Positions 4,979 through 59,305 of a stretch of DNA of 64,000 nucleotides are shown here, one piece after another. Under the pieces are notes generated by a model. It was given only the letters and a program-made list of their open reading frames with translations. It made no database searches and was not told where the DNA came from. The translations under genes were made by a program, and so were the position numbers. Within the stretch, counting starts at the first letter, position 1, and every line of letters starts with the position of its first letter. Source of the DNA: Nepenthes gracilis (lineage: Eukaryota > Streptophyta > Magnoliopsida > Caryophyllales > Nepenthaceae); contig BSYO01000023.1 of NCBI GenBank assembly GCA_033239525.1, positions 9,986,385 through 10,050,384 of the forward strand, written 5' to 3'.

Positions 4979-5371
4979 CCTCGGTTACACACCGAGCGGC
5001 CCAAAAGTGGTCGAATTCTAAACCTCGGTTACACACCGAGCGGCCCAAAAGGGGTCGAATTCTAAACCTCGGTTACACACTGAGCGGCCCAAAAGCGGTC
5101 GAATTCTAAACCTCGGTTACACACCGAGCGGCCCAAAAGCGATCGAATTCTAAACCTCGGTTACAAACCGATTGGCCCAAAAGCGGTCGAATTCTAAACC
5201 TCGGTTACACACCGAGCGGCCCGAAGCGGTCGAATTCTAAACCTCGGTTACATCACCGAACGGCCCGAAATGGTCGAATTCTAAACCTCGGTTAAGCACA
5301 CCGAGCGGCCCAAAAGAGGCCAAAATTTCTAAACCTCGGTTACACACCGAGCGCCCAAAAGAGGTCGAATA
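4979..5371 (+). repeat. 44-bp hairpin tandem array in E1
   Basis: Nine head-to-tail copies of about 44 bp. Each begins with a hairpin CTCGGTTACACACCGAG (6-bp stem, 5-nt loop) followed by a conserved tail CGGCCCAAAAGCGGTCGAAT and a TCTAAA spacer. Units 1-4 are nearly identical, while later units vary in loop length. The tail is the same as that of arrays at 8417-8766 (minus), 36364-36651 and 59095-59305, although the hairpin arms differ. The array lies about 600 bp before the 3' LTR, in the element's 3' untranslated part. Confidence 0.92.
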
Positions 5372-5870
5372 AACCCGGAGTGACAAAAAAATGGAGTCAC
5401 CAAATCCGAGTAAAAATCCGAGTGACCAAAAAAATGGAGTCACCAAATCCGAGTAAAAACCCGAGTGACTAAAAATGGAGTCACCAAATCCGAGTAAAAA
5501 ATCCGAGTGACCAGAAAATGGAGTCACCAAATCCGAGTGACCAGAAAAATGAGTCACCAAATCCGGAGTAAAAAATCCGGAGTGAAAAATGGAGTCACCG
5601 ATCCGAGTAAAAAATCCGAGACCAGAAAATGGAGTCACCGATCCGAGTGACAAGAAAAATGGAGTCACCCAGATCCGAGTAAAAAAATTGAGTGACCAGA
5701 AAAATGGAGTCACCGATCCGGATAAAAAATCCGGAGTGACCGGAAAATGGAGTCACCGGATCCGGAGTAAAAATCCGGAGTGATCGGAAAAATGGAGTCA
5801 CCAAATGAGTAAAAATCCGGAGTGACTGAAAAATGGAGTGACCAAAAATGGAGTCACCAAACCGAGTAAA
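5372..5870 (+). repeat. Second tandem array of E1, GGAGTCACC/GGAGTGACC
   Basis: Directly after the first array come about a dozen units of roughly 40 bp made of ATGGAGTCACC, AAATCCGAGT, AAAAATCCGAGTGACC and variants. GTCAC and GTGAC alternate, so each unit can fold with itself or its neighbour (GTCAC pairs with GTGAC). Spacer lengths vary by a few bases. No counterpart was seen in the other elements. Confidence 0.85.
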
Positions 5871-5947
5871 TTAATCCGAAATCATTAAAAATTCTAAGTA
5901 ATCAATCCCATCAGAAAACATGCTAGAAGTTAAAATTTTAATCTTCT

Positions 5948-5962
5948 AGCATGGGGGGCTTA
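5948..5962 (+). other. Polypurine tract of E1
   Basis: A G-rich run (ATGGGGGG then CTTA) ends immediately before the 3' LTR, where plus-strand DNA synthesis is primed in LTR elements. It fixes the orientation together with the primer site. Confidence 0.65.
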
Positions 5963-6659
5963 TGATGGGTTTGGTAAAACCTGACCCAAGAAAAAGTTTA
6001 AATTGCTTTATCTAACCCACGGGTGATTATTCAACCGTTTGATCCAATTCACCGGCGGTTGACTATGGATAAGATCAACCGTCTATATAAGGACCTCATC
6101 CAAAGAGAAGGAGAAGGGAGAAAACCTCCAAAAACCTCAAAGAGGAGAAAACCTCCAAAAGGGAGAAAACCTCCAAAAACCTCCAAGAGGAGAAAACCTC
6201 CAAAAGGGAGAAAACCTCCAAAAACCTCCAAGATGGGGAGAAAACCTCCAAAAACCTCCAAGAGGGAGAAAATCTCCAAAAAAAACCTCCAGAGAGAGGA
6301 GGTTTCTTTATAAAGAGGAGTTATCCTCCACGAAAGAGGAGGGCCTAAAAAAAAGTAAGAAAAAGAAGAGGGAGAGAGGAGGAGAGGAAGGAAAATTCTC
6401 TCTCTTTCTCTAAAAATTATTATCTATAAAAAATGAATACATCTTTCCTTTTTTATTCTCAAAAGGCATTATCGACTGAAATATCGGAGAGCCTTTGGGG
6501 ATTTAGCCCCATTGGCCTTCTGACCATCTCGTCTACTTTTGTGTTGCACAGGACTCAAATTCAAAACTATGGAGACGGATCCGCGTCAGATCGACAAATA
6601 AGAAGATCCGATTTGCGGCCCCTGACCCGTATGACAATCCGAATTTCTGGTACGCAACA
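5963..6659 (+). repeat. 3' LTR of E1
   Basis: Begins TGATGGGTTTGG, ends ACGCAACA, and is followed at once by the AGTAG duplication. It matches 1457-2134 with a few substitutions and with changes in the purine-rich repeat. Confidence 0.93.
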
Positions 6660-6664
6660 AGTAG

Positions 6665-8366
6665 CATTTGGCCTGATGAGTGTTTGAAAAATACATGTAC
6701 GTGGCTTGCTAATAGTAGCGTGCCTAATGTGTAGGCGACAGGTGGGTGCACGTGAGCTAAAATGGGTATAAAAATTTCTGATTCATTTTAAAAGTAAGAT
6801 TTCTAAGAGTCCTAAACACAATGCGTGCTACAGTGAATAAACCAGAAAGAAAAAAGAAGAATGGAAAGTTTTCAGTATCAGATTGATTTGATTCAGATTT
6901 CATTATGGATCAAGTTTGGATATGTAATCCTAACTACTATTATAGGATGTATTATTAATTGGTTATTTATTTTTCTTGTTAAATTTTCTCGTATGGTTAC
7001 TAGGTAAATGTAGCTAGTATTTAACCAGTTATTTACACTCGTCATTATGAAGGGCTCTTGGAGGGGTCCATTTGTAACAAAATATCAGTAGATGATACTA
7101 TTTGAAAATTGTCATGTACTTTTTCTCTTAATCAAAAAAATTATTAAATTAGTAAATTATTTGATGAAAATAATTTATCATATGTATTTATAATAAATAA
7201 ATTAATTGAACTCATTTTTGTAATAATTTGACTTGAAGTTACCAAAAATCATAAAAAAAAATCCACATTCTATATAATAACAAATTGTATGTGGTATGTG
7301 ATTTTGAATTATAGTCTATTATATTAAATAATACATGTCTTCATATTTGTATAAATTAAGTTTGAACTATTAATTATGGTTATATTAGAAGCGTAAGATC
7401 AATTCATTTAAATTAAACTCATTAAATTAATAGGTCGAATTTAAATTTAATTTTATCCTTGAAAAATTAATTACTTGAGTTATCTAGCTTTTATGACCTT
7501 AATTATGTATTTAATTATCAATAAATCATAAATAGATCTTAATATTTCATTATATTTAATAATGTTTATCCTTCAAGTTTTAATATATAGGTTGTTTAAT
7601 TTTTTTATTAAATTAATAATGCATAATATTTTATTAGATTATAGGCTATGCTAAACAATAACCTAAATATTATTATTATTAAATAATATAAATACTGATT
7701 AAAAAAGTATACTTTTAGTTTTTTTGTATTGATACATGTATTTATATTTTTAAATGTATAAAGTATAATTTATTTCAATTAATTCATATAAGAATGTTAG
7801 ATAACTCAAGTGAAAATAAATATTTAAAAAATATAAATAAATTTAATTAAGATTTTATTATTTGTTAAATACATATATTTGTATTTATAAATTTGTAAAA
7901 TATTTTTTTATACTTACATATTCTTAAAATATTATTGTATAAGTAGTATATAAAAAATTAATAAAGATTTTACTTTACAATAAATAAAAAATGATAAAAA
8001 ATACTTTTAAAATATTTTCAGAGTTTTTAAAATTTTAGTTAAAAATTAAAAATCTGAAAAAACTCTTTTTTCCCAGTTTTTAAAATAGAAAAAGATAATT
8101 TAAAATTGTTTTCTTATTTTTTTTCATTTTTTCCAAAATATTTGGAAAACAATCACAAATTTTTAATTACCGAAAAGGCCCTAAGATAAAAAGTGTACAA
8201 TCAGTTGATCTATTTTATGAAAATAAAGATTACTTATAAAATATCAAAAGTGTTGGATAGTTATTAGCTTTGATTAACTTTTTCTCCGTTCAAACTAATC
8301 CTTTTAGAATGTACTAAGTAAATTTTATATGATTGACAAACATCATTGTATAAATATTCTCAGTTA
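6665..8366. other. AT-rich spacer, no gene seen
   Basis: The first few hundred bases continue the flank interrupted by E1 and may belong to the decayed copia element. The remainder is very AT-rich with homopolymer runs and no coding signal on either strand. It ends at the TATAT target duplication of E2. Confidence 0.6.
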
Positions 8367-8371
8367 TATAT

Positions 8372-8397
8372 TGTTGCGTTCCGAATTTCGGGGTCCA
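8372..8397 (-). repeat. 26-bp remnant of E2 3' LTR
   Basis: Matches the end of the other LTR (9932-9957) with three substitutions, then homology stops abruptly. The missing ~1.2 kb was deleted together with whatever lay between the array and the LTR. Confidence 0.8.
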
Positions 8398-8416
8398 ATT
8401 ATATATTCTGGAGCCT

Positions 8417-8766
8417 CTCGGCCGGAGCCGAATTTTTAGAATACGACCTATGGGGTCGCTCGGATAAGACCGAGTTTTTAAATACGACCTCTGGGGTCGC
8501 TCGGCAGGAGCCGAGTTTTTAGAGTACGACCTCTGGGGCCGCTCGGTCGGAGCAAAGTTTTTAGAATACGACTTCTTGGGCCGCTTTGATAAAACAAAGT
8601 TTTCAAATACGACCTCTGGGATCGCTCGGCCGGAGCTGAGTTTTTAGAGTACGACCTCTGGGGCCGCTCGGCCGGAGCCGAGTTTTTAGAGTACGACCTC
8701 TGGGGCTGCTCGGCCGGAGGCGAGTTTTTAGAATACGACCTCTGGGGCCGCTCGGCCGGAGCCGAG
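8417..8766 (-). repeat. 42-bp hairpin tandem array in E2
   Basis: Nine units of about 42 bp. On the element's strand each has a hairpin CTCGGCTCCGGCCGAG, a tail CGGCCCCAGAGGTCGTA, then a CTCTAAAAA spacer. Unit 5 (8584-8599 on the plus strand) has CTTTG and CAAAG arms in place of CTCGG and CCGAG, two paired changes that keep the stem. The neighbouring unit 4 has one old arm and one new arm, like an intermediate. Unit 2 changes the loop but keeps the arms. Confidence 0.93.
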
Positions 8767-9051
8767 TTTTTTGCTTTGACTTGCGAGCGGCCTTGGTGTT
8801 GATGAAGGAACATGAGAATACATCATGATGGACATAACGAAGGGACCTTTTCATTCATGTATATGCGTTACATTGGGTGGCCTCCAGGGCCATTTCGAAT
8901 CCTCACGTTACATTAGTGCCCTGAGTCCTAGTTGACGCATACTTGAGCCTCGGCGTCTCTCTCGTTGCTCCCTTACCGACCGCGGCCTTTTGACAGTTCT
9001 GCCCTGTGCTGGCCTTTACGAAGTTGGTGCGCGCAGCCCCCCAGTCGATGG
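8767..9051 (-). other. E2 segment between gag and array
   Basis: About 285 bp linking the gag stop to the array. No reading frame or domain is seen. It sits where pol has been lost in this derivative. Confidence 0.5.
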
Positions 9052-9855
9052 TCAGGCGTGTTTCGTGCCCATTATGGCTTTGCCTTTTGAGCGGCGTGAC
9101 CGATTGCATCCTACTGTTCCCCAGCCTTGCCTGGGTCGTGGCAGGAAATGGTCGAGATAGCCCTCCATTACCAGCCGCTCGACTTCTGCCTGGAGCTTCC
9201 TGCAGTCCTCGGTGTCATGGTCGTGGCTGCACTGGTAATGACAGTATTCCCACTGGTCACCCCCTTCTAGGTTCTTCAACTCCTTGGGCCATTTCAAGAA
9301 CTCTTCGTCTCGGATCTGCCTCAGGATGCTAGTGAGTGACTTAGCGAGGGCAGGTGAGCCTGATGGCCCGTCTCCTCTAAAGACCATCCGTTCGGGCTCG
9401 TTTTGCCCGGACGGTTCTTGGGCCTTCTGTTGGGCGCCATCTCTTCTTTTTCCTTCCCCTGTCCTCGGGGGTAGTGAGTCTTCTCTTCCTCCCGGCTGGC
9501 TTGCTTCGCCGGTCTTGGGTTCAAAGACTGTCTTCCAGAGCCTCTTGAGCCCTCTTTTTGTTGGGACCTGGGCCATGGACTTCTTTTGATTGAGGTAATC
9601 CCTCAACTCGCCAGGAGCTTGCGCAGCTTGTCGCTCCTGGGGCGCTGCTGGCCGCGAACTTTCAGGGTATGCTCCCCTGGACTGCTCATCCACCCTCTCG
9701 CGGAGAGTATGGACTGCTCTTGAGAGGTTGTCCACCTTCTTTACCAATTTCTGTACGCTAGTACCGGGACGGCCACTCGCCATGCCGCCTGATGGGAGGC
9801 ACCTGTCGAAGGGTCCTATCTCTCGGGTGGACGTGCTGTCTTGCCTGCCTGCCAT
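9052..9855 (-). CDS. Uninterrupted gag-like protein without gag core, E2
   Basis: A 267-residue open frame starting at MAGRQDSTST about 75 bp after the primer site. The frame extends upstream into the LTR, but this ATG fits the transcript. The N-terminus is basic and Ser/Thr-rich, followed by a probable coiled coil (VQKLVKKVDNLSRAVHTL) and a charged low-complexity middle. The C-terminal part matches the gag tail of G1 and G2: EEFLKWPKELKN, then a knuckle-like CHYQCSHDHDTEDC, then KLQAEVERLVMEGYLDHF. The capsid-like core seen in G1 (around 31,400-31,650) is missing without breaking the frame. As the reading frame is open, a product could be made in its present form, perhaps an RNA-binding Gag fragment; function is inferred. 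Confidence 0.6.
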   Translation of the reverse strand: MAGRQDSTSTREIGPFDRCLPSGGMASGRPGTSVQKLVKKVDNLSRAVHTLRERVDEQSRGAYPESSRPAAPQERQAAQAPGELRDYLNQKKSMAQVPTKRGLKRLWKTVFEPKTGEASQPGGREDSLPPRTGEGKRRDGAQQKAQEPSGQNEPERMVFRGDGPSGSPALAKSLTSILRQIRDEEFLKWPKELKNLEGGDQWEYCHYQCSHDHDTEDCRKLQAEVERLVMEGYLDHFLPRPRQGWGTVGCNRSRRSKGKAIMGTKHA

Positions 9856-9913
9856 TTTTAGAGCGCTGGTTGTTCTGCAAGGGTAGGAGGCGTAGAGCTT
9901 TTTGTTAATGCGT

Positions 9914-9931
9914 TCCCACAGACGGCGCCAA
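9914..9931 (-). other. Primer-binding site of E2
   Basis: Reads TTGGCGCCGTCTGTGGGA on the minus strand, immediately inside the LTR, and is identical to the site of E1. Confidence 0.9.
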
Positions 9932-11144
9932 TGTTGCGTTTCGGGTTTCGGGGTCCAGTGCAACGCAAGTATTAGGAGTGTAGGGTGTCGAGAAGGGGTG
10001 ATTAAAATCGGATTTTTACGTGGAAAGCCACCCCCTGAATGAGGAGGAAAAACCACGAGGCTCTGGGCCTATGAAAATGCTTCACTATGATTTGAAGTCT
10101 TACAAAGTACAAGTTTTGGGAATTCCTTCCTTATCTCTTGTTAGTGTTTCTCTTCTTTTAAAAGCTCTTTCGTTGGGAAGCTTTGTCACCTTTGTTCCTT
10201 CTTGTTATGAAGAGAGGAAAAAAGGGGCCGAGAGTCTTCTTATTTTCTTATTTGTTCTCCTGGAAAAGCGGAAGAAAAAGGTTCCCTGAAAAGGGGATTT
10301 CACTGGGTATTTATAGAAAAAATCATGCCGTTGGGGAGAGAACACGTGGCAGCTGGCATGTGGCCGAGAGGCTGTCTGCTGTTCTGTTGACCACGCCAAG
10401 CGCATGAGGGAGCCGTCCACTTGCCTTGTTGTCCATGTCAGAAATGATGGCGTGTTCAGGGAAGCACGCTGCTGGCGCCGCTGGTAGGGCCTGAGCATCT
10501 CAGGAACGTAGACTCTAGGTGTCAGTCTTGATTTGATTAGGCGTGTCCTGTGGAGGCGGCGTCCTGCAGTAATTGTATGTTTCTTGAAAATTGGTGAAGT
10601 TGCTTAGTTGGTGCTCTTGGCCGTGTATGAGTTGGTCCTCGTCCTCGTGTGGCATGCATTGTCCCTTTGTGAGTTCGCGAACCCGTTCGAGGGAGGTAGC
10701 TCTTGGACGTTAACTACCCTTTTGGAAGGACTTGAAGGATCTCTGATTCCATGTGAAGGGTCCTTAGGCTTTTTCTTGACTTCTTGGATCATTCTGAAAC
10801 CTGATGGAACCTCTGAGGCTCTCGGACTTCTTCTTCTAATCCTCGTACCTGAGGGCCGGGGTTCACAGACATTTCTCTGGCGTCCTGGACGTCGTCAGCT
10901 GTTTGTGATGTCCTCAAGCCCCTATTGGTTAAAGGGACATCTCGGACTTTTACCGTAACTTTGGCTTTTGGGACACTAGCCCACGTTCTCAGGCTTGTTA
11001 GGCCAGTCTAGTATAAGGGGCTAGCCTGGGTTTTGGGCCTCTTGGGCTGTCCAGTTCTCTTGGTCCGCGGACATATATCTGGGCTTTTCACTTGGGCTCT
11101 TTCTTTGGACCTTGTTTTATGGGCCCCTATATTGGAACCCAACA
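9932..11144 (-). repeat. 5' LTR of E2
   Basis: On the minus strand it begins TGTTGGGTTCCAATATAGG and ends AACGCAACA just before the primer site. Length is 1,213 bp. Only its last 26 bp have a partner in the other LTR. Open frames inside it have no recognisable domain. Confidence 0.85.
10308..10316 (-). promoter_or_regulatory. TATA box of E2 LTR
   Basis: CTATAAATA on the minus strand, about 830 bp from the LTR start and 375 bp before its end, a sensible position for a U3/R boundary. Confidence 0.55.
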
Positions 11145-11149
11145 TATAT

Positions 11150-12289: not shown

Positions 12290-12308
12290 CCAATAAATGT
12301 GTCCCACG
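12290..12308 (+). promoter_or_regulatory. ER stress response element (ERSE)
   Basis: CCAAT, nine bases, then CCACG: an exact fit to the ERSE consensus CCAAT-N9-CCACG. It lies 245 bp upstream of the PDI start codon. In plants and animals such elements bind NF-Y together with an ER-stress bZIP factor and induce ER folding genes, so the site suits the gene behind it. Binding is inferred. Confidence 0.7.
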
Positions 12309-17856: not shown

Positions 17857-17861
17857 TTTTG

Positions 17862-19694: not shown

Positions 19695-19700
19695 CTGATC

Positions 19701-20779: not shown

Positions 20780-20784
20780 ACATT

Positions 20785-21232: not shown

Positions 21233-21236
21233 AATT

Positions 21237-23530: not shown

Positions 23531-23539
23531 ATATAATTT

Positions 23540-29581: not shown

Positions 29582-30640
29582 TGATGGGTACACCAGAATA
29601 TGGGCTGGCTTATGGTCAACGAAGACCCAAAAAGTATGCCAGATGGTCAACGTAAAAACGGCCCAACAGGGTGCGAAGGCCCAAGGTTTAAAAGGCCTAA
29701 GACGGTCAACGCCATCGTTGACCGGAAGACGGTTAGCGCACACGCAGACGGTCAACTCGAGCGTTGACCGGAATCATTGTAGCAACAGGCCAAAAATTAA
29801 AGGCTTTTACGGGCCAGGCCCACGTAAGCCCACGATCCATCAGGTGGCCAGAAACGGCTTTCCTAGCCATTTCCACGATCTTTGCTGGTTCCCAAAGCGA
29901 ATATTGACAAAATCGGCGCCCTTCTCGTAAGGAAGACGCCAGATTTTCCCAATCTCCTGCCAACTGGGACACTCCAATGGTAAAAAAACATAGAAGGAAT
30001 GTAAGTGATTTGGAAAGCCGCTGGCCACCGTGGAGGGAAACTATTTTAATTCTTTTGGCAAATGGTATCAACTCTGAAAGGCAGGTCAACCAAGAGTCAC
30101 ACAGCGGATCACTCCTTCCAAAGGAGGAAGATCGCCCGCTCAACCATAAGTAAGCTCTAATATTTTCATTCCAGACACGCTCTCAGTTACTTACGCTTTC
30201 TGTTATGCAAACTCTTACTAAGGCCACTCATGCAAGCTACTGCTTTTACGACGCCCATGAAAACTACAGACTGACACTTCTCCATTTTCTACTCTCATTC
30301 AAAAACCTAAAGCATACAAACACGCTTCTTACGGCCGTTTACTACCTCCCCACCATCCAGATTCAAGAAGACAGCTTTGTCTCTCTTTCATCTGGAAACA
30401 CACACACACACATACTCTCTCTCTCTTTCTCAATTCTCAGTTTCAGAAACCTTCTTGTATTTCGAAGGCTGTTTACTGACTTGAGCGTCGGAGTGTTTTC
30501 GGTGATACAACTTCCCGCTGACACACTGACCTCCTATTCTTTTTAGTGGTGTGCAGGATCCAAACTCAGGGAACGGTGCCGGAACCAGGACAACCGGATC
30601 AACCTGAATCTGTTCGAAGTTCGGATCCAAGGACGCATCA
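29582..30640 (+). repeat. 5' LTR of G1
   Basis: 1,059 bp, TGATGGGTACAC to GGACGCATCA. Matches 39370-40416 along its whole length. The first 190 bp hold a W-box cluster. Confidence 0.95.
29614..29769. promoter_or_regulatory. Cluster of six W-boxes (TTGACC) in U3
   Basis: Exact TTGACC or its complement GGTCAA occurs at 29614, 29645, 29704, 29718, 29750 and 29764. The last four form two palindromic pairs: GGTCAACG-CCAT-CGTTGACC, and GGTCAA-CTCGAGCG-TTGACC. WRKY factors bind TTGAC(C/T), so the LTR promoter may answer to defence or stress signals. The other LTRs of G1 and G2 keep versions of the pairs. Confidence 0.5.
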
Positions 30641-33106: not shown

Positions 33107-34183
33107 GCAGACATGCCTGGAATCTCAGCAGAGATAATGATCTACAAATTGGGACTTGATTTCAGCTGAAAGCCCATTAGGCAGAAGTGGAGGAACCACT
33201 CCATGGAAAAACTAATCACCATCCGAGAAGAAGTCAAAAAGCTGTTAGACGTAGGCTTCATTAGGGAAGTCCAATACCCGGACTGGCTCTCTAATGTCGT
33301 ATTAGTAAAGAAAAGCAATGAAAAATGACGGATGTCCGTCGATTTTACCGGCGTTAACAAGGCTTGTCCAAAGGACAGCTTTTCCTTGCCCAGGATCGAC
33401 CTACTGGTTAACTCAACAGCCGGACATGAGCTGCTAAGCATCATGGATGCCTATTCGGGTTACAACTAGATCCAGATGAGTCCGGAGGACGAGGAGCACA
33501 CCTCGTTCATGACCGATCAGGGCACCTACTGCTATAAAGTAATGCATTTTGGACTCAAAAACGCTGGAGTGGCCTACCAACGTTTGGTTAACAAAATATT
33601 CGAAAAACAGATTAGTCACAACATGGAGGTTTACGTCGACGACATGCTCGTCAAGAGCAGGGTCATCGGCAACCACATCCGCGACCTAGAAGAGTCATTC
33701 GAGGTGCTCCGTAAGCATCACATGAAGCTGAATCCTGCTAAGTGTATCTTCGGAGTAGCCTCCAGCAAATTCTTGGATTTCATCGTCTCCCAATGGGGGA
33801 TCGAGGCAAACCCAGAGAAGATCAAGGCGCTCACCGACATGGCTCCGCCACGGAATGTAAAGGACATCCAACGACTGACTGGACGGCTGACAGCATTGTC
33901 CCGCTTCCTTGCGAAGTCCGGTGACAAGTACCAGCCCTTCTTTAAAGTCCTTAGAGGAACAAAATCCAACGGGTTCTCATGGCCAGCAGAATGCCAAACC
34001 GCTTTTAATGAACTGAAACGGTATTTGGCCAACCCGCCGTTGTTGGTGTCACCCAAGGGCGGAGAGAAGCTATACCTTTACTTGGCAGTGTCGGAGGCAT
34101 CCCTCAGTTCTGTCCTCGTGCACCAGGACTCTGACGCTCAACGGCCGGTCTACTACGTGAGTAAAACATTGACCGGCCCATAG
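33107..34183 (+). pseudogene. Reverse transcriptase of G1
   Basis: Gypsy RT with motifs in order: VKKLLDVGFIREVQYPDWLS, VDFTGVNKACPKDSF, MDAYSGYN, GTYCYKVMHFGLKNAG and the catalytic YVDD at 33632-33643. Then KCIFGVASSKFLDFIVS, and the connection region with RLTGRLTALSRF. Stops occur in the N-terminal part (one at former Arg, one at former Trp compared with G2, one at the Gln after GYN). From 33,476 the frame stays open for 235 codons. Confidence 0.95.
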
Positions 34184-34206
34184 ACCTGTTACTCACGCGC
34201 AGAAAA

Positions 34207-34968
34207 TTGGCCATGGCGCTAATATTCTCAGTGTGGAAGTTGAGGCCTTACTTTCAGGCCTACTGGATAGTGGTCCTCACGGACCAGCCGCTAAAAAATA
34301 TCCTCCAGAAGCTCGACGTTTCTGGACGATTGATAAAATGGGCTATCGAATTGGGCGAGTTCGACATCGAATTTCAGCCCAGGTTTGCTGTGAAAGTACA
34401 GCCGTTGGCTGATTTCATTATTGAGACTACAACCCCAGTCCTCGAGGAACAGCCCGAAGAAAGCGTGGAACTGCTTGTCAGAGTTCCAGAATGGATACTC
34501 TATGTTGACGGATCGTCAACGGACATGGGCAGTGGCACAGGAGTGGTCCTTAAAACCCCCAACGGGTTTGAGGTGAAATACTCCCTCAGGCTTAATTTCT
34601 CGGCAACAAACAATGTTACCAAGTACGAGGCCCTATTAGCTGAATTGCGGTTAGCTAAGGAGTGCTTCGCCAAGAGGTTGGCAGTTTACAGGGACTCCGA
34701 GTTAATCGTTAACCAAATTAACGGAGGCTTTGAGGCTAACAACCATCTCTTGGCCAAGTACTTGGCAAAGGCAAGGGAGGCCGCCCAGGGTTTCGAAAAA
34801 CTGACCCTGGTTCACGTCCCCCGAACTGAAAATTGGAAGGCGGACCAGCTGGCCAAACCCGCTACTGCCGAAAATCGAGAACAGTATCTGAGGGACATAC
34901 GGGAGATCCTAGACGCTCCCAGCATTGAGAAGCGAGAGGCAATGCAGATTTTCGAAGCGAAAAGCTGA
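34207..34968 (+). pseudogene. RNase H region of G1
   Basis: Opens in a new frame after a small frameshift. Reads LRPYFQAYWIVVLTDQPLKN, LIKWAIELGEFDIEF, then the RNase H domain: YVDGSSTDMGSGTGVV, TKYEALLAELRLAK, DSELIVNQINGGFEA and WKADQLAKPA. The acidic catalytic positions D, E, D are kept. The archaeal-like RNase H with a GSGTG loop is usual in Tat-lineage elements. The frame is uninterrupted for 253 codons. Confidence 0.9.
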
Positions 34969-36196
34969 ATGACGCCTTTCCTAAACTACCTGGCGGACGG
35001 ATCATTGCCAGAAAATGTGGAGAAGGCCAAACGGGTCAAGAAGACAGCCGGCTGGTATGCTGTGGTTGATGAACTGTTATACCGCCGTGGCTACTCGACT
35101 CCATACCTCCGCTATCTAACTTCCGAAGAGGCTAACTACGCTTTAAGCGAAGTCCACATCGGGATTTATGGGTCTCACATTGGTGGAAAAAACTTGACCT
35201 TTAAGGTCATGCGCCAGGGCTATTACTGGCCCTCGATGAAAAAAGACGCGCTGGAGTTCGTGAAGAAATGTGAAAGCTGTCAGCTTCACAGTAACTTCCA
35301 CCGCCAGCCGTCCACAAATCTGAAAGCCCTTCAGGCCCCTTGGCCCTTCACAATGGGGGCTCGATCTTCTCAGCCAGTTTTCCATTGCCACGGGGCAAAG
35401 AAAATTCGTCATCGTAGACATCGATTACTTTACCAAGTGGGTCGAAGCTGTCCTACTGGCTAAGATAACAGAACACAACGCCCTGGAATTCCTCCGCCAG
35501 AGCATCGTCTGTAGATTCGGCGTCCCCGAGGTCGTTGTGACTGACAACGGGATCCATTTCTCTGGGAAACGCTTCACCAAGAATTGCACGAGCCTTCGCA
35601 TCATGCTGGTCCACACTTCGGTGGCATACCCCCAAGCAAACGGACAGGTGGAGGTGACAAACCGAACGCTGCTCCATGGGTTAAAGACTAAGCTGGAAGA
35701 CGCAGGGAGCTCCTGGGCAGACGAGCTCCCTTCCGTTCTTTGGTCTTATCGAACAACCCCGAAGGAACCAACGTGCGAGATGCCCTTCAGCCTCTGTTAC
35801 GAGACTGAGGCGGTAATCTCGGTCTAAATCGGGCTTCCAAGTCTCAGGGTGGAGTCATTCGACCCACTGACTAACTCCCAAAAAATCAGGGAGCACTTAG
35901 ACTTGTTAGAGGAAGCTCGCAACGCTGCCAGAGAATGGACAGCAGCCTACCAATATCGGATCGCCCGATACTACAACAAAAAAGTTAAGGCACGATGATT
36001 CGATGTAGGAGATCTGGTCCTACGAGGCGTCGATGCCACAGGCAAGCTGGCCGGCAGCAATAAGCTCTCCCCTAATTGAGAAGGGCCTTTCATTGTCTCC
36101 GCCGTCCTACGAAATGGAGCCTACAAACTCCGGGGCCAGGACGGGAAACTGGTTTCGCGAACGTGGAACGCCATCCACCTCAAACGATACTTCTAG
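34969..36196 (+). pseudogene. Integrase of G1
   Basis: N-terminal zinc domain with HIGIYGSHIGGKNLTFKVMR, YYWPSMKKD and CESCQLH. A frameshift near 35,360 moves the frame. The catalytic core has FTKWVEAV, VVVTDNGIHFSGKRF (second Asp), YPQANGQVEVTNRTL (Glu) and SYRTTPKEPT. The C-terminal part has RYYNKKVKAR and GDLVLR, and ends LKRYF before TAG at 36194. Stops at V-TAA (35,825) and others make it non-functional. Confidence 0.92.
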
Positions 36197-36208: not shown

Positions 36209-36316
36209 GTACGCACTTGCATTATTGTTTGCACTCGCTTGCTTGTTTACATTTCGCAAAAATAAGTGTTTACTTAGCATACTTCCTATATACATGTGTA
36301 TGTATTTTTTTTGCAG
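36209..36316 (+). other. Intron-like segment after G1 pol
   Basis: Starts ACACAG/GTACGC 12 bases after the pol stop and ends with a T-rich TTTTTTTTGCAG. G2 has an equivalent at the same place (58924-59043). It may be a 3' UTR intron of the sense transcript. Confidence 0.45.
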
Positions 36317-36363: not shown

Positions 36364-36651
36364 GTTAAACCCTGGTCATCCAGGAGGCCCATAAGCAGTC
36401 GGACTTGAACCTCGATCATCCGAGCGGCTCATTAGCGTTGTACCTAAACCCTGGTCATCCAGGTGGCCATGAGTGGTCTATTATAAACCCTGGTCATCCA
36501 GGTGGTCTATGAGCGGTCTATTATAAACCCTGGTCATCCAGGTGGCCCATAAGTGGCCTAATATGAACCTCATTCATCCAAGCGGCCCATTAGCGGTCGT
36601 ACTAAACCTTGGTCATCCAAGTGGCCCGATAGCGGTCAAAACCTTAGGGCG
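36364..36651 (+). repeat. ~40-bp hairpin tandem array in G1
   Basis: Seven units, each a hairpin CCTGGTCATCCAGG followed by TGGCCCATAAGCGGTC and a spacer TAAAC. Unit 2 has arms CTCGA/CCGAG (36411-36424). Unit 7 has CTTGG/CCAAG (36608-36621), a paired change. Loop TCAT is constant. Confidence 0.93.
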
Positions 36652-36929: not shown

Positions 36930-36935
36930 TTTATT
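36930..36935 (-). terminator. Poly(A) signal of G1 antisense gene
   Basis: AATAAA on the minus strand, 55 bases beyond the antisense stop codon. G2 has the same signal at an equivalent distance. Confidence 0.5.
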
Positions 36936-36989: not shown

Positions 36990-38781
36990 CTACGGAGGCG
37001 GTGACCGCCTCTGACTGTCCTGGGGCTCCACCACAAGGTCATCCTTATGCTGCACCCCACGGTTTCCTAAGTGAAGGTACTCAACGGGGAAGTCAGGGTC
37101 GATCAGCCTCACAAGACGCCGACAAATCTGGACCCCCTCAAACATCCGTCCGTGCAGCATGCCCTCGACCTCGTGGGGACGGATCCGGAGACCGAGCTCG
37201 TTCTTCAAAGTGGATATTCGATCGGCAAGCCATTTCTTGCTTGCTTTGCTTCGATCCTCATCTTCTTTCAAACGGACATTCCCAACTCTTAAGCTGGCAA
37301 TCTTCATTTCCATTCCTGCCAGAACAGTTTCGAGGGCAGCAGTCTCCTCGCGATGCTCTCCTATTGAAGCAGCCAGCTTAGCGTCCAACCAGGTGATCTC
37401 TGCCTCCCTATCAGCCAGCGCCTGATCGCGTTGCGCCACCACCTTAAAGACAGCGGAGGCCACCTTAGCGGCTGCACAAATGACAGACAAAGGCCAAGTT
37501 AGAAATCTGGAAATGAGAAAGTACGAGGAATTAATCAACAAGAATCATACCTCCCAAAATCTCCTCGCGGGCCTCTTCGGCCTGGCCTCTAGACCTGGCC
37601 CAAGTGGCGGCGGCCCAGGAGCATCCTCTCGAGTCAAGCTCGTAGCTGCTTCCTCCAGAATGAGCTCCAAGAGCTCATCAGTCTCGCCCACGGCAGCAGC
37701 ATGTTCCTCAATTGCAGCCTCTGGAGCGGCTACTGGAAAATCGTGCTCCACCATTCGCTCCATAGCAGGAATCTGCGCTACTGGAGAGCTAACAGACGGC
37801 TCCCGCGCCTCCACCACTAGCTCGCAAGCGGGGTCCGTAAAAGACTCCATCAATAAGCACCAGGAACCAATTGCTGCACGGGCTGCGCTAAGATGACTCC
37901 TCCTGAGTCCGCCGACTAGTCCTCGTGGGTCTTCTCCAGGACCGCAGTGCTACCAGGCCCGCTGCAGATTCCGGCAGCCACGTAATCGATGCGGGACGAC
38001 GACGACGACGAGGGAGTCTCCAGCACCTTTTCCAACAGCGGGCCAATAAATCCTTCGTTAGTATGCCGCATGCGGATGATTACGCCCTTGGAGTCCTCAG
38101 GCCTCATCACCCTTATTGGTGGCATGGGTTTTTGAACTGGGGATGGCGGACCCCAATTCACCTTCTTAGTCTCCTCCCGAGAAACCAAAAAATTTCGGTT
38201 GAACTCGTTGGGGTTCTCCTTTATTAACTTAGTCAACCACTCCTGGGCCACCGTCTCCGCCACAAACGGCGTCCCCGCATATGCCTCCGGAACCTGGCCC
38301 CAGTCTTTTTCAAGGGGCCAGGCTGTTCCCACACTCACAAAGAAAAACCGGTTCTTTCAGTTCTTCAACAAGTCATATATGGCCTTATTTATTTTTATGC
38401 TAGAATGGGGGACAAGCGATGTCCACTCTCCTCCTTGATTTATTTTAAACAAGACCTAACCATGGACATCCTAAGCTTCTTACCACACTTTTGAAGAAAA
38501 ATACACATAGTACAGAGATACCGAATAGTGTTGGTATGGAGTTGAGTGATGGGTACTCGTAGAGCTTTTAAAAGAGACTCCAAATCATCCGGCAACGGGA
38601 GACGAAGGCCGCTCCTCAGGTGGGCCTCGTAGACTATGATATGCCCCACTGGAGGAGCAAAAGCTCTGTCATTCCTTCCCGGGACTCTCCATACTATTTC
38701 CTTCGGGACATTAAACTCAACGCACAACGCTTTAACGTCACACACTCTCAGAACGGAGGCGATGTCTGCAACGGATGCCAT
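36990..38781 (-). pseudogene. Antisense ORF (aORF) of G1, gypsy-type transposon protein
   Basis: A gene on the strand opposite to gag-pol, as in Tat-lineage elements, where such proteins are annotated as putative gypsy-type transposon domain (PF04195-like). Starts MASVADIASVLRV at 38,781, with VYEAHLRSGLRLPLP. After a break come KNRFFFVSVGTAW, EWLTKLIKENPNEFN and an acidic Ser-rich linker. A 79-bp intron (37472-37550, donor GAG/GTATGA, acceptor TTTGTGCAG) leads to an exon coding a coiled coil (REAEITWLDAKLA, LKNELGLRIRPHEVEGML) that ends RRSPPP. Stops and a phase mismatch at the intron in this copy make it a pseudogene. Its role is not known. Confidence 0.75.
37472..37550 (-). other. Intron of the G1 antisense gene
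   Basis: Minus-strand GTATGATTCT to TTTGTGCAG, 79 bp. It separates the acidic part from the coiled-coil exon, exactly as the G2 intron at 60209-60275 does. Confidence 0.55.
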
Positions 38782-39069
38782 GGCTTACTCGAAGAACTAG
38801 GGTTTCTGAAAGTTAGGAACGGAGAAGACGAAAGCTTGGAGGCGTAAAAGATTTTCGGAATGAATGGGGAAAACTTAAACGGCAAGCACACTCAAAAACT
38901 CCTCATTAAGGACGCCGTCAGTCCTGACACGTGTCAACTCCCTACTTGGCCCTTCAAAAATTGGACTTTGACGCATTAATGGCCAAGATCTCCACCGAAC
39001 CAAAGGGAGACGCATGTCTTCTTCTGACCTGCAAACCGGTTGATGGCCACGCGTCAATCAAGCCTAGCA

Positions 39070-39250
39070 GGAAGTCCTCCAGAACTAACCAAAACGGTCA
39101 ACAATTTTAGTCAACATCCTTCTCCGGAATTAACCAAAACGGACAACAATTCCGATCAACATTCTTCTCGGGAATTGACCAAAACGGTTAACAATTCTGG
39201 TCAACATTCTTATACGGAATTGGCCAAAACTGTCAACAGTTCTGGTCAAA
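39070..39250 (+). repeat. 48-bp repeats with GTCAAC motifs before 3' LTR of G1
   Basis: Four units of about 48 bp, each with GAATT(A/G)ACCAAAACGGTCAA-like and GGTCAACATTCTTCT-like parts. Each unit holds one or two W-box-like cores (GTCAA/TTGAC). G2 has degenerate equivalents at about 61,945-62,060. The array lies upstream of the antisense gene start and may belong to its promoter. Confidence 0.75.
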
Positions 39251-39369: not shown

Positions 39370-40416
39370 TGATGGGTACACCGAAAAATGGGCTGGCCCA
39401 TGGTCAACGGATGCCCAAAAGGTATGCCAGACGGTCAACGTAAAAAATACCTAACAAGGTGCGAAAGCCCAAGGCTTGAAAGGCCCAAGACGATCAACGC
39501 CATCATTGACCGGAAGATGGCTAACGCGCAGCGACGACGGCTCGGCGTTGGCGTTGTCACTAATCAACAACAGAGCCAAAAAATAAAAGGCTTTTACGGG
39601 CCAGGCCCACGTAAGCCGACGATCCATCAAGCGGCCAGCAACGGCTCTCCTAGCAATTTCCACGATCTTTGCTGGTTCCCAAAGCGGATATTGACAAAAT
39701 CAGCGCCTTTCTCGTAAGGAATGCGTTAGATTTTTCCAATCTCCTGCTAATTGGAACGCTCCAACGGTAAAAAACACAGAAGGAAAGTAAGTGCTTTGAA
39801 AAGCCGCTGACCGCTGTAGAAGGAAACTATTTCAATCCTTTTGGCAACTGGTATCAACTCTGAAAGGCAAGTCAACTAAGAATCACACAGGAGATCACTC
39901 CTTCCAAAGGAGAAAGATCGCCCGCTCAACCAGAAGTAAGCCCTCGAATTCTCATTCCAGACACGCTCTCAGTTACTTACGCTTTCTGTTACGCAAACTC
40001 TTAGTAAGGCTACTCACGCAAGCTACTGCTCTTACGATGCCCACGTAAACTACAGACTGACACTTCTCCATTTTCTGCTATCATTCAAAAACCTAAGGCA
40101 TACAAACGCGATTCTCACGGCCGCTTACTGCCTCCCCACCATCCAAATTCAAGAAGATAGCTTTGTCTCTCTTTTATCTGAAAACACACACACACTCTCT
40201 CTTTCTCAATTCTCAGTTTCAGAAATCTTCTTGTATTTCGAAGGCTGTTTACTGACTTGAGCGTCGGAATATTTTCGGTGGGACAACTTTCCGCCGACAC
40301 ACTGATCTCCTGTTCTTTTTAGTAGTGTGCATGATCCAAACTCAGGGAACGGTGCCGAAACTAGGATAAGCGGATCAATCTGAATCTGTTCGAAGTTCGG
40401 ATTCAAGGACGCATCA
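39370..40416 (+). repeat. 3' LTR of G1
   Basis: 1,047 bp, TGATGGGTACACC to GACGCATCA, followed by the CAAAT duplication. Partner of 29582-30640. Confidence 0.95.
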
Positions 40417-42150: not shown

Positions 42151-42154
42151 AAGA

Positions 42155-52403: not shown

Positions 52404-53396
52404 TGATGGGTACATCAATAGTGGGCCAGCTTAGGAAGGAAGAATGGCCCAAATCCACAACGGCCCATTAGCGCTTGGATCATCAACGCTTGTCATTGAC
52501 CGAAAAGGCCAATAAATCAGGAGAAGCCCAAGAACTTGACAACCTGCTTGGGTCCATGATGGTCAACACTTTCGTTGACCAAAATCATGCAAGGCGATCA
52601 ACGTTTTTATTGATCGAAAGTATGACTAGTTGGCTGTCTGCAAACCAGGCCTCAAGTGGGCCAAGCTCGGTTTGGTCCACTCTACCGTCTTTGACCAGCA
52701 ACGGTCTTCTCTCCTGATTTTACGCTTTTCATAGAAGGTAATCTCCACTACAACAGTAATTAGCAGATTTAACGTGCATTCCTAAAGGAAGGCGCTAGAA
52801 TTCTTTTCCCGTCTATTGAAAACCCTAACGGCTATAAAACACAAAAGGAAAGCAATCAATCTAGCAACCGTTACTAACATAAAAGCTCCACGTCAAAAAA
52901 GTCAATGATCCCAACAAAATGTGAGAATCAAGCCCTTATACACAAGGAAAGCAACCCAAAACAGCGCCTATAAAAGGCCATGGAGTCCTCACTCTAAGGC
53001 ATGCTTTCATTTGTCCACAATAAGCTCAAACGCTTAAACTTGCCACTAAATCTCTCTGCAGAAAAGCTCACACGCTTCAAACTGCAACTATGTTCACAGC
53101 GAATACAGTGCTTAGAGCCAACGCTCCTTACGAGACAACAAAGCCTCTCTCGACGAGAGCATTCACCGATCTCAAATACTCTCTACATTTCCTTACATTC
53201 TTTACTTCCACCTTTTTAATTCGAAAGCCGTTTGCTGACTTGAGTATCGGAGTGTTTACGATAGGACAACCTCCCACCGTTACCCGACCTCTTATTCGTA
53301 GTTGTGGTGTGCAGGATTCAAACTAAATAGATAGAGCCACACTCAGATAACCGACTTGATCCAAATCTATTTAAAACTTGGATCTATGACGCATTA
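52404..53396 (+). repeat. 5' LTR of G2
   Basis: 993 bp, TGATGGGTACATC to GACGCATTA, where the terminal CA is mutated to TA. Contains palindromic pairs of W-box-like motifs, for example GGTCAACACTTTCGTTGACC at about 52,560. Confidence 0.93.
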
Positions 53397-53414
53397 TTGG
53401 CGCCATCTGTGGGA
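53397..53414 (+). other. Primer-binding site of G2
   Basis: TTGGCGCCATCTGTGGGA, one base different from the E1/E2 site. Confidence 0.85.
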
Positions 53415-53479
53415 AGCATACAAAAAGTTAACCATTTTATTTCCACGATCTTTCTCAGTTTCGCCTTTCACCAAATAGA

Positions 53480-55090: not shown

Positions 55091-55189
55091 CGGCTGGCTA
55101 AGACCCCAGTAGATAGCAAGGAATATCAGGTTGGGCGGAAGAAACAACACCCAGAAGACAACGTCATTAGTTTTAGCGATAATGACTTG

Positions 55190-55700
55190 AGCCATGTAAT
55201 CTTCCCCCATGCAAATCTCCCTGTTGTATCCGCACTCGTTTTGAACCGTAGCGTCGATTACCAATTGAAACGAGTTTTCATTGATAATAAAAGTTCGCGT
55301 AATTTGCATTACATTGATGTATTTTTTAATTTGGTTTAAAAAAGAGTCAGTTGAAACCTGTCGAAAGCCCACTATATGGCCTTGACAGCGAACGAGTCGC
55401 CGTTCAATGAATGATCCAGCGGGAGGTCACCCTAGGCACATACCCAAGAAAGGTGAGTCATACACTCACCTTCTTGGTTGTCAACCTGCCTTCCGTGAAC
55501 AATGCGATTCTAGGCCGCCCATGCCTAATACCATTTGAAGCCATAACTTCAATACCGCACTTTAAGATGAAAATTTCAACAGCATGCAGTATTGGTGAAG
55601 TGTTGGGCGATCAAGTTATTAGGAGGACATGCTACAAGTCCCAAATCACTCTAAGTGGCAGCATAAAGGCAGCAGGAGAACTTAACCATTGAGATGAAGC
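55190..55700 (+). pseudogene. Protease of G2
   Basis: Reads VSALVLNRSVDYQLKRVFID and D-N-K-S-S at 55283-55297, again without the active-site Gly. The second half (LPSVNNAILGRPCLIPF) is in another frame after a frameshift near 55,340. Confidence 0.8.
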
Positions 55701-55859
55701 AATTTTGCAGCAAGTGCAATCTGATGAGGTTATCGATTTAATCCCACTGAATCCGGAAAACACGGAGAGATGTGTGCAGATCAGATGCTCAATCATCGGG
55801 ACACTGCGTGACGAGCTAATCGCGTTCTTATAACAGAACGCTGACGTTTTCGCATGGAC

Positions 55860-57066
55860 ACCCGCTGACATGCTTAAAATTTCGGTCAGAATAATGGTTC
55901 ACAAGTTGACCTCGATCCCGACCGTAAGCCCATTAGGTAGAAGCGGAGGAACCACTCCATAAAGAAGTTGATTGTTATTCGGGAGGAGGTGAAGAAAGCT
56001 GCTAGATGCCACTTCATTCAGAGAAGTTCAACACTCGGATTGGCTCTCCAACGTCGTCATGGTAAAGAAAAGCAACGAAAAATGGAGAATGGACGTCGAT
56101 CTCACCGACGTTAACAAAGACTGCCCAAAAGACAACTTCCCTTTACTCAAGATCTACCTGTTGGTGGATTTAATACTCGGATACGAGTTGTTGAGCTTCA
56201 GGATGCGTACTCGAATTATAATCAGATCTGAATTAGATCAGAGGACGAGGAGCACACTTCATTCATGACAGACCAATGCACTTACTGCTATAAGGTGATG
56301 CCTTTTGGCCTAAAGAATATAGGTACCACTTACCAGCGGCTCGTGAACAATATGTTCAAAGAGCAGATTGGCCACAATATAGCGGTGTACGTTGACTACA
56401 TGCTCATCAAGAGTAAGACCACTAACGACTATATTCGTGATTTGGATGAATTGTTCAAGATGCTTCACACACATCAAATGAAGCTGAATCCTTCTAAGTG
56501 CATCTTTGGAGTATCCTTAGGGAAGTTCTTGGATTTTATCATCTCTCAACGAGGGATCAATGCAAACTAGAAAAAGATCAAGGCCCTCACGGATATGACC
56601 CCACCATGGAGTGTCAAAGATGTTTAAAGGCTAACCGAATGACTGGCAGTCTTGTCTCATTTCTTGGCCAAGTCCAGCAACAAGTACCAACCTTTTTTCA
56701 AGGCTCTGAGGGGGACAAAATCAAACGGATTTCAATGGACTGTAGAAAGCCAGGCAGTCTTCGATGAATTAAAGTAGTACCTGGCCAGTCCGCTGTTGCT
56801 GACGTCACCCGAGGACGGAGAGGAGTTATACCTCTACCTGGCAGTGTTAGAGGTAGCTCTCAACTCTGTCTTCATACACCAAGATTCCGACTCTCAGCGA
56901 TCGGTCTACTATGCGAGCAAGACGTTGATCGGCGCAGAGATATGCTACCCACATGCAGAGAAGTTAGCCTTGGCACTTGTCTTCACCACCCGAAAACTAA
57001 GGCCTTACTTCCAGACTCATCGCGTGGTAGTCCTGACCGGCCAGCCTCTGAAGAGTATTCTGTAGA
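55860..57066 (+). pseudogene. Reverse transcriptase of G2
   Basis: Fragments in three frames: VVMVKKSNEKWRMDVDLTDV, TYCYKVMPFGLKNIG, and KCIFGVSLGKFLDFIIS. The catalytic box reads YVDY (56388-56399) in place of YVDD, which removes one metal-binding Asp. Many stops. The connection region LRPYFQTHRVVVLTGQPLKS ends it. Confidence 0.88.
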
Positions 57067-57740
57067 AATCCAATGTTTTTGGACGGTTGGTAAAGTGGAT
57101 TATCAAATTGGGAGAATTCGATATTGAATTCCGGTCAAGCCAGCCATCAAGGGGTAGGCTCTGGTTGACTTCATCGTCAAGACCACAACATCAATTCCTG
57201 ATGAACAATCCACTGAGGACGCAGGACTACACGGGAAAGAGACAAAATGGGTTCTCAACGTAGATGGATTTTCTACGGACTTAGGCAGCGGTGTCGGAGT
57301 GGTTCTGAGGACCACCGATGGGTTTGAGGTGAAGTACTCCCTTAGACTCAATTTTTTGACTACCAAAAATATTATTGAGTACGAAACCCTGTTAGTTGGA
57401 CTAAGACTAGCAAAAGAGTACTCCGCTAGATGACTGACCGTCTACAGCGATTCTGAGCTGGTCATTAACCAGGTAAATGGGAGTTTCGAGGTGAGCAATC
57501 CTCACTTAACCAAATATTTAGTTAAGGCGAAGAACGCCATTCGGAGATTTGATAAGATGAACCTGGTTCATGTTCCCAGAATTGAAAATCGGAAGGCTAA
57601 CCAACTTGCTAGGACAGTGGCGGTCAAAAATCTAGAACAATACTCGAGGGATATGCGGGAGGTCCTAAGCACTCTCAACACGGAGGAACAGCAACCAATG
57701 CAAATATCTGATATGGACAGCTGGATCATGCCTTATTAGA
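57067..57740 (+). pseudogene. RNase H region of G2
   Basis: Decayed copy of the G1 region: NVDGFSTDLGSGVGVVLR, EVKYSLRLNF, AKEYSAR and NRKANQLARTVA. Stops and frameshifts throughout. Confidence 0.75.
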
Positions 57741-58915
57741 GATACCTAGTGGACGAAATACTGCCAGACACGTGGACGAAGCCAAGCAGGTTAAAAAGAT
57801 GGCCGGTTGTTTCACCATAGTCGATGGATGGCTGTATCGTTGTGGCTACTCGACCTTGAGAGAAGTCCACTTTGGGATTTACGGATCGTATATCGGCGGC
57901 AAAAACCTAACATTCAAAATCATGCACCATGGATATTACTGTCCAACGATGAAGAAAGACGACCTCAACTTCGTGAAAAAGTGTGAAAATTACCAGCTCC
58001 ACGGTAATCTTGACTATCAACCGCCCACTGATTTGAGGACTCTTCAATCTCCTTGGCCTTTCACACAATAGGGGATCGATATTCTCAACCCATTTCCTAT
58101 TGCTACCGGGCAAAAAAAAATTCATCATCACTGGCATCGACTACTTCACCAAGTGAGTCGAAGCCGCCCCGCCAGACAAGATCAATGAACACAACGCTTT
58201 AAAATTTGCCCACCAGAGTATAATCAATAGATTTGGCATTCCCGAAGCCATAGTGACTGATAACGGAATCTAATTCTCCGAAAAGTGCTTCACCAAGTAT
58301 TGCACCAATCTAGATATCAGATTGGTCCACACTTTAGTAGCGTACCCAAAATCCAACGGATAGGTAGAGGTCACAAATCGCATGCTACTCCACGGTCTGA
58401 AGACAAAGTTGAAAGATGCAGGGGGCTCCTGGGTTGACAAACTGCCCTCCATCCTATAGTCTTATCGAACAACTCTAAATAAACCGACTTACGCGACGCC
58501 CTTCAATCTCTGTTATGGGACTGAAACAGCAATTCCGGTTGAGATTAGATTTCCAAATCTTAGGGTTGAGTCTTTTGACCGATAAGGTAATTCCTAGAAA
58601 ATCTGAGAATACCTAGACTTGTTAGAAGAAGCTCGTAACGCTGCCAGATTGTAGAAAGCAGCTTACCAACAACGAGTCACACGCTATCACAACAAGAAGG
58701 TAAAAGTGCAACACTTGAAAGTTGAAAATTTGGTCTTGCGAAGTATCGAGGTTACGGGTAAGATCACCAACCGGAATAAACTTTTTCCAAATTAGGAAAG
58801 TCATTTTCTAATCTCTGCCGTTCTGCGGAATGGAGCATACAAACTCCGGATCCAGAACAGTAAGTTAGTTTCACAGACATAAAACACGGTTTATCTCAAC
58901 CACTACTTCAAGGAA
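57741..58915 (+). pseudogene. Integrase of G2
   Basis: REVHFGIYGSYIGGKNLTF, YYCPTMKKDD and a zinc domain reduced to CENYQLH (one Cys lost). Core motifs VTDNGI and NRMLLHGLKTKL survive. YPKSNG is followed by a stop. Ends near 58,900 with ILTTTS-like decay of the RYF end. Confidence 0.8.
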
Positions 58916-58923
58916 GGATACAG

Positions 58924-59043
58924 GTAGGTCAGCTATATGTATGCTTGCACATATTATTTCTCTTTAACAAAGGAAAATATTTTTTCTTTCTTATTTGAAC
59001 AGTATCCTTTTTCTTTTCCATATGCATGTGTGTCTACTTGCAG
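58924..59043 (+). other. Intron-like segment after G2 pol
   Basis: ATACAG/GTAGGT to TCTACTTGCAG, 120 bp, with pyrimidine-rich 3' half. Equivalent position to 36209-36316 of G1 but much diverged inside. Confidence 0.45.
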
Positions 59044-59094
59044 GGTTATACAACTTAGACTATCCCTGAGTTGGGTAGATTTTTACCCGCTCGT

Positions 59095-59305
59095 AACTAA
59101 ACCCTGGTCATCCAAGCGGCTCATAAGCGGTCGTAACTAAATACTGGTCATCCAGGCGGCCCACAAGCGGTCGTAACTAAAAACCCCGGTCATCTAGATG
59201 ACTTACAAGCGGTCGTAACTAAACCTAGATCATCCAAGTGACCTATTAACAGTCGAATTAAACCATGGTCATCCAAGTGGCCAATTTGATGCCAAAATCT
59301 TTGGT
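59095..59305 (+). repeat. ~40-bp hairpin tandem array in G2
   Basis: Five units, CCTGGTCATCCAAGCGG and variants followed by CTCATAAGCGGTCGTAACT. More decayed than in G1: several arms are mismatched. Confidence 0.85.

Follow-up and report, generated by a model that had tools for sequence, protein, structure and literature searches.

What keeps one repeat architecture alive in retrotransposons whose repeats are otherwise known for their variability? In a 64,000-nt stretch of the Nepenthes gracilis genome (contig BSYO01000023.1; referred to below as the window), four gypsy-type long terminal repeat (LTR) elements, here called E1, E2, G1 and G2, each carry a tandem array of short units in which a hairpin is followed by a conserved tail. 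The tandem repeats in the 3' untranslated region (3'UTR) of Tat/Ogre elements were reportedly described as hypervariable by Macas in 2009. In the passages covered of PMC11963269, the arrays of Retand elements likewise vary greatly in sequence and are specific to families, and no function is known for them. Here we report that the Nepenthes arrays are built from one module, that the arms of its first hairpin covary, and that the module is also carried by a family of elements that moved although they have no recognisable genes; we discuss whether the array may act in cis for packaging and mobilisation.

The module and its covariation

Tandem arrays in the window were located with Tandem Repeats Finder and their units were then read individually (Table 1). 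Thirty units of one module are spread over the four elements, each consisting of a 5-6 bp inverted repeat with a conserved tail directly 3' of it, which in most forms reads GGCCCA(nn)AGCGGTC. Thus the four arrays of five to nine units placed here by a first-pass annotation are present, as judged by Tandem Repeats Finder, by unit reading and by the reciprocal model searches described below. That annotation had also proposed a shared tail in elements with different LTRs, and both proposals stand in part. The tail is conserved across the elements but is not identical in all four, since that of E1 ends GGTCGAAT and that of E2 is without the AAGC part (CGGCCCCAGAGGTCGTA); the LTRs are indeed different, yet all four elements have the same LTR ends (TG(A/T)TGGGT...ACGCA) and primer-binding site TTGGCGCCGTCTGTGGGAA, G2 departing by one change and G1 by several. 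The CGGCC..GGTCG of the tail is capable of self-pairing, with a G.U in the middle, and the module may consist of two consecutive predicted hairpins, of which covariation backs only the first.

Models built from one group of arrays found the other. With a covariance model of the 18 E1 and E2 units, the next-best matches in the window were four of the 12 G units (E values 0.003, 0.007, 0.013 and 0.12), the following match having E 3.8. The reciprocal model of the 12 G units recovered all nine E1 units and seven of the nine E2 units (E 6e-10 to 0.46) before its first non-array match (E 1.5). A sequence-only model reached five places in the two G arrays, each matched only partly, and between E1 and E2 the array was the sole blastn match of at least 60 bp (162 bp, 70%). 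These searches show the module to be homologous across the four elements; the repeat is not confined to one family but is common to the E1, E2 and G families. G1 and G2, which are 68-69% identical over about 6 kb, are sister elements and are therefore not independent cases. None of the Rfam covariance models gave a match above its gathering cut-off in the window.

Pairing holds in 86.2% of the cells of the 30 window units, compared with 81.6% in shuffles and 26-43% with slid partners, and both the covariation score and the number of cells changed on both sides exceeded all 500 shuffles. Under a tree-based null, in which the observed number of changes was placed randomly on a tree of the 30 units, 11 of the 12 measures for helix 1 reached significance (P 0.000-0.034), the exception (P 0.108) being percent paired over six pairs on the tree built without the helix-1 columns. 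Whole arrays also gave better folding energies than dinucleotide-shuffled sequence (z -4.16, -5.73, -1.78 and -2.28). Paired helix-1 cells number 43/45 in E1, 31/35 in G1 and 18/25 in G2, where LTR identities are 93.9, 86.8 and 77.2%, respectively, so that pairing declines with LTR age, as would be expected if it was kept while the elements moved and decayed afterwards. In a comparison of G1 with G2, conserved structure on either side of the array did not exceed column shuffles (z -1.06 and -0.75); the pol-end control did better (z -2.89).

The genome at large gave a broader sample, and helix-1 covariation proved far stronger there than in the window. The exact tail GCGGCCCAWNAGCGGTCG occurs 763 times in the 752.5-Mb source assembly and its reversed spelling 0 times; arrays were sampled from 100 of the 763 places, among the matches listed. 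A set of 34 arrays was formed from 20 fetched 10-kb stretches, 10 of 30 returned loci (the rest overlap) and the four window arrays. Because loci were picked by an exact tail match, tail conservation is not readable from them; the match fixes the last right-arm base and the first tail base in at least one unit, and the other arm bases are unselected. The unit finder, which recovered 7/9 units in E1, 8/9 in E2, 6/7 in G1 and 4/5 in G2, counted 2-17 units per array, with array periods of 35/39, 36, 39-40 and 45-46 bp. The model of G units matched the 30 returned loci 315 times, a figure that includes overlapping loci repeatedly.

We used an alignment-free test, in which the exact complement of the five bases 5' of the tail was sought in the 22 bases ending three bases before them. 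Among the 192 units of the 34 arrays, 154 are unique, and 77 of these held an exact arm complement, as opposed to 24.5±4.4 with shuffled arms (maximum 37, 300 shuffles); with one mismatch allowed, the numbers were 123 and 96.3±4.5. The four commonest right arms found their complement in 62-68% of their own units and in 4-11% of others. A hold-out of 14 further loci, 13 of them with arrays (L091 had none), gave 31 of 65 unique units against 9.0±2.6 (maximum 18 in 2000 shuffles). When each arm pair was counted once, with 116 of 125 G-type units fitting the register of a four-base loop, Watson-Crick pairs occupied 171 of 235 cells, more than in any of 2000 shuffles (144.2±5.5, maximum 164).

Stem types tell the same story at the level of single changes. 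In 37 arrays, 174 units have a four-base loop and 102 of these are perfectly paired (CCTGG/CCAGG 34, CTTGG/CCAAG 27, CTCGG/CCGAG 17, CCTAG/CTAGG 17, CCCGG/CCGGG 6 and CTTAG/CTAAG 1). The five commonest stem types account for 101 units and the eight one-step intermediates that connect them for 11, and this rarity of intermediates relative to doubly changed stems argues for compensatory change and not for one-sided decay. Independent decay of the arms, for example through methylation, would yield intermediates no less often than double changes and was rejected, as only 11 intermediate units were seen. From the excess of arm complements and the rarity of intermediates it follows that hairpin 1 truly covaries. 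Stems are shared by descent within a family, so the 101 units are not independent events; in the 34-array set, a matched stem type is found in as many as 18 arrays, a mismatched one in no more than two. Neighbouring units are often unlike, as in array L073, which runs CCTAG, CCTGG, CTTGG, CTCGG, and E1-type arrays repeat CTCGG/CCGAG. In G-type arrays, the final unit found has the right arm CCAAG in 12 of 25 and CCGAG in seven of 25. The tail as a second covarying hairpin was also considered; neither the tree-based null nor the test on unique arm pairs gave it support.

Position of the arrays and the gene-less E1 family

In G1 the domain order is RVT_1, RT_RNaseH, RVT_3 (E 3e-16), Integrase_H2C2 and rve, that is, the Tat order, where RVT_3 is taken by us to be the aRH domain. 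G2 matches RVT_1, RVT_3 (E 4e-10) and Integrase_H2C2 (E 1e-4, below cut-off). The gag-pol of both elements is broken, G1 also matches gag, and in both the tandem repeat lies between pol and the 3' LTR. Beyond the window, 13 of the 20 fetched 10-kb stretches are coding copies, and in 13/13 the integrase lies in sense orientation 0.76-1.6 kb upstream of the array and an open reading frame (ORF) related to TRP28 lies antisense 2.0-3.6 kb downstream. In G1 the antisense match to TRP28 (PF04195) has E 0.013 and 16.2 bits, compared with a Pfam cut-off of 26.2, and the sole relative found for this ORF piece is Nepgr_000973 of Nepenthes gracilis (86% identity over 67% of its length). In the parts covered of PMC6317226, aRH between RNase H and integrase is the Ogre/Retand order and Transposase_28 occurs in 23% of Retand elements.

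The remaining seven stretches are E1-type. Six of them are without a match to the coding pieces of G1, G2 and E2 within about 5 kb, and in the seventh (L088) an aRH match lies 4.8 kb upstream of the array. Matches to the E1 LTR flank the array on both sides in six of the seven copies and on one side only in L086. The E1 element of the window spans 1457-6659 between perfect target duplications (AGTAG), and a comparison of its interior with the gag, pol and antisense-ORF pieces of G1, G2 and E2 returned nothing beyond one 18-residue match (E 0.008), so that its connection to the other elements consists of LTR ends, primer site and array only. E1 is a member of a multi-copy family that carries the array and moved while having no recognisable genes. 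E2 (8372-11144, minus strand) is internally deleted, and of its 3' LTR 28 bp remain, into which the array runs.

Arrays in elements unrelated to the Tat lineage, which the first-pass annotation had named as an outcome that would speak against it, did not appear: G1 and the 13 coding copies, the related gag of E2, and the LTR ends and primer site of E1 all tie the arrays to that lineage. The element families carrying the module likely belong to the Retand lineage.

Possible roles of the array

To our knowledge, little is known of the cis-acting signals by which plant LTR retrotransposons are packaged, and a literature search on the subject turned up no title on a plant element. We infer an RNA form, a Gag partner and a packaging role for the array, which may then be a cis-acting tag for the packaging and mobilisation of genomic RNA; this is our tentative reading, and we put it somewhat short of an even chance. 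Each unit would fold into its 5-6 bp hairpin, followed by the tail as a predicted second hairpin, and a row of such units, placed in the sense RNA after pol and before the 3' LTR, would present the same hairpin-plus-tail site many times over. Gag of the element, or a partner of Gag, could bind these sites, and that RNA would be selected. A gene-less E1-like family, which retains the array, the LTR ends, the primer site and the polypurine tract, might in this way have been moved by the proteins of coding relatives, and the presence of the array in such a multi-copy family is the main ground on which we infer a cis-acting role. It is a more doubtful proposition that an entire retrotransposon lineage is recognised through this array as its tag, which coding elements and gene-less parasites would share and which would so be the cis-acting mobilisation signal under the 'hypervariable' Tat 3' region. 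Differing stems would then fold locally without mispairing with their neighbours, while the common loop and tail would present the same site to one protein.

Several of our results weigh against a packaging tag acting as RNA, or against the covariation on which it leans. The E1-type copies were found through the array, and loss of the array in other copies lies outside this sample. In the window units, two of the five measures, double-change pairs (5 vs 4.1) and further pair types (14 vs 15.1), were not above shuffles, and helix 2, in the tail, was significant in none of six measures under the tree-based null (P 0.21-0.73). Single-unit folding energy was unexceptional (sense-strand p 0.08-0.64). 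Among the right arms of the unique units, 21 of 28 distinct types, mostly in one to three units, showed no excess of their own complement, and fully paired unique arm pairs (13/47, G.U allowed) fell within shuffles (9.2±1.8, maximum 15). Finally, single defects comprise 10 G.U and 13 A.C, about equal numbers, so there is no sense-strand bias and RNA is not favoured over DNA. One structured RNA motif beneath the variability, as the first-pass annotation had it, is therefore upheld as to a persisting structured module with helix-1 covariation under the tree-based null, but not as to RNA being the acting form, for which the strand bias gives no support.

The main rival is neutral palindrome correction together with slippage. 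An old hairpin stretch behind pol would have been multiplied by slippage or strand transfer, its arms rematched by template switching at the quasi-palindrome, and the whole passed on by functionless descent. Copying errors at quasi-palindromes would change both arms together, and palindrome correction of this kind would explain why intermediates are scarce; unit number and period also differ between families, in keeping with such upkeep. What it leaves unexplained are the conserved tail and the TCAT loop (found in 163 G-type units, followed by TTAT in 8), the same place in 13/13 coding copies, and the presence of the array in the gene-less E1 family, and we consider neutral upkeep rather unlikely. 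Another, improbable, explanation is that the array is an RNA export or stability element which brings unspliced genomic RNA out of the nucleus. A constitutive transport element, for comparison, binds NXF1/TAP and exports unspliced RNA. Between pol and the array, G1 (36209-36316, 108 nt) and G2 (58924-59043, 120 nt) have a GT...AG stretch with a T-rich end that looks like a 3'UTR intron, and a simple pattern finds both intron-like sites in nine of 12 other G-type coding copies (L072 left out); a putative intron of about 110 nt just before the array would suit an export element. Retroviral RNA export elements have been described (PMC12789967, PMC10309623, in the passages covered), some with repeats or hairpins (PMC12789967), and by analogy the array might be another. 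As presented in the covered part of PMC12789967, the constitutive transport element of Mason-Pfizer monkey virus (MPMV) and the direct repeats of Rous sarcoma virus are cis-acting 3' RNA elements serving the unspliced genome; the likeness is at most functional, and the MPMV and Rous sarcoma virus elements act in export with known host factors, unlike the module here.

Less probable again, in our view, is a DNA operator, in which the TRP28-related protein encoded by the antisense ORF would bind the array at a series of sites. TRP28 is a predicted DNA-binding protein in the passages covered of PMC11963269, its relative neighbours the array in 13/13 coding copies, and the lack of strand bias among defects suits a DNA site. 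On the other hand, the arm sequence changes while pairing stays, which is needless for a site read by sequence, and periods of 35-46 bp do not hold one helical phase; nor is there a TRP28 match near the E1-type copies, though the protein could act in trans. The suggestion in the first-pass annotation that the array controls the facing antisense gene found no support. In their minus strands, G1 (36930-36935) and G2 (59649-59654) have an AATAAA at equivalent sites between the gene and the array; it is possibly the poly(A) signal of the antisense gene, whose transcript would then likely end before the array is reached.

How far, then, does the Nepenthes module resemble repeats already described? 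According to the passages covered of PMC11963269, arrays occur in about half of recently active Retand elements, adjacent to pol or the 3' LTR, and they resemble the module in the kind of element that carries them and in lying between pol and the 3' LTR, often adjoining pol, with an antisense TRP28 ORF downstream. They are family-specific and variable, whereas here one covarying module with a conserved tail extends across families and into a gene-less family. The repeats of the Tat 3'UTR are hypervariable and thought to arise by abnormal strand transfer (PMC7004042); they differ in sequence and monomer length, and a shared structure is unmentioned in the passages covered of that source, in contrast to the structure shared here. 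Hairpin-like tandem repeats are mentioned in Silene, a plant with Retand elements, and the likeness is one of description only, from a single line of the covered text (PMC3290532). A literature search, with the 2006 and 2009 primary papers outside it, found no conserved or covarying motif described in Retand or Tat arrays in the passages covered, and none of six tail spellings tried; an earlier description is possible. With a covarying module that spans families and a gene-less family, the 'hypervariable' Tat 3' repeats become a defined structure, open to probing and to searches in other plants, and such a structure can be assayed for packaging or export.

Wider searches, in collections where no other plant was found, gave no sign of the module or its carriers. 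In viral contigs the tail pattern matched 39 stretches once each, none of the 39 being below 42% GC and the 29 printed having 60-75% GC, and these matches, being single and GC-rich, were taken as chance. The tail pattern had no match in a genome-contig collection, the G1 reverse transcriptase no relative in viral contigs, and an ORF of the E2 array, searched as protein, no relative.

Element features and further repeats

Table 1. Coordinates of the arrays and of the elements that carry them (positions in the window)
Feature	Position	Strand	Remarks
E1 5' LTR	1457-2134	+	target duplication AGTAG before this LTR and after the 3' LTR
E1 primer-binding site TTGGCGCCGTCTGTGGGAA	2135-2153	+	
E1 array	4979-5370	+	Tandem Repeats Finder, 44 bp x 8.9; 9 units of 43-48 bp, hairpin CTCGG/CCGAG + tail
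E1 3' LTR	5963-6659	+	93.9% identical to 5' LTR; polypurine tract immediately upstream
E2 3' LTR remnant, 28 bp	8372-8399	-	joined to array; target duplication ATATA
E2 array	8407-8771	-	Tandem Repeats Finder, 42 bp x 8.7; 9 units of 41-42 bp, final unit truncated
E2 gag nucleocapsid part	9109-9378	-	43% identical to G2 gag; 9133-9315 49% identical to G1 piece
E2 5' LTR	9932-11144	-	primer-binding site directly after (9931 downwards)
G1 5' LTR	29582-30640	+	3' LTR 39370-40416, 86.8% identical; target duplication CAAAT
G1 pol in pieces	33470-35824	+	reverse transcriptase, RNase H, RVT_3 (second RNase H), integrase zinc and core domains
G1 array	36366-36646	+	Tandem Repeats Finder 36366-36637, 40 bp x 6.9; 7 units of 39-40 bp
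G1 antisense ORF piece	38443-38784	-	weak Transposase_28 match
G2 5' LTR	52404-53396	+	3' LTR 62204-63185, 77.2% identical; target duplication CCACC
G2 array	59098-59302	+	Tandem Repeats Finder 59091-59282, 40 bp x 4.8; 5 units of 39-42 bp

E1 holds further repeats. A second tandem array, of GAGTGAC...GAGTCAC inverted repeats, directly follows the first at 5378-5861, and neither structured model, of E units or of G units, detected a relation between the two. At 5919-5953, directly 5' of the polypurine tract, lies a perfect inverted repeat of 11 bp (CATGCTAGAAG...CTTCTAGCATG) whose loop is an AT palindrome, and both LTRs (1608-1780 and 6114-6282) contain tandem GGGAGAAAACCTCC mini-hairpins 3' of a TATATAAGG box. 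In G1, a 45-bp repeat occurs at 39077-39249, 5' of the 3' LTR, and its unit folds better than shuffles on both strands (p 0.033 and 0.003).

The 3' repeats of Tat-lineage elements are described as a source of plant satellite DNA in the passages covered of PMC11963269 and PMC7004042. In one E1-type copy (L074, 4383-5846) the array has grown to about 1.5 kb, which may mark a stage on the way to a satellite, and in this it is like the hypervariable 3'UTR repeats of Tat/Ogre elements, as far as the covered text of PMC7004042 describes them.

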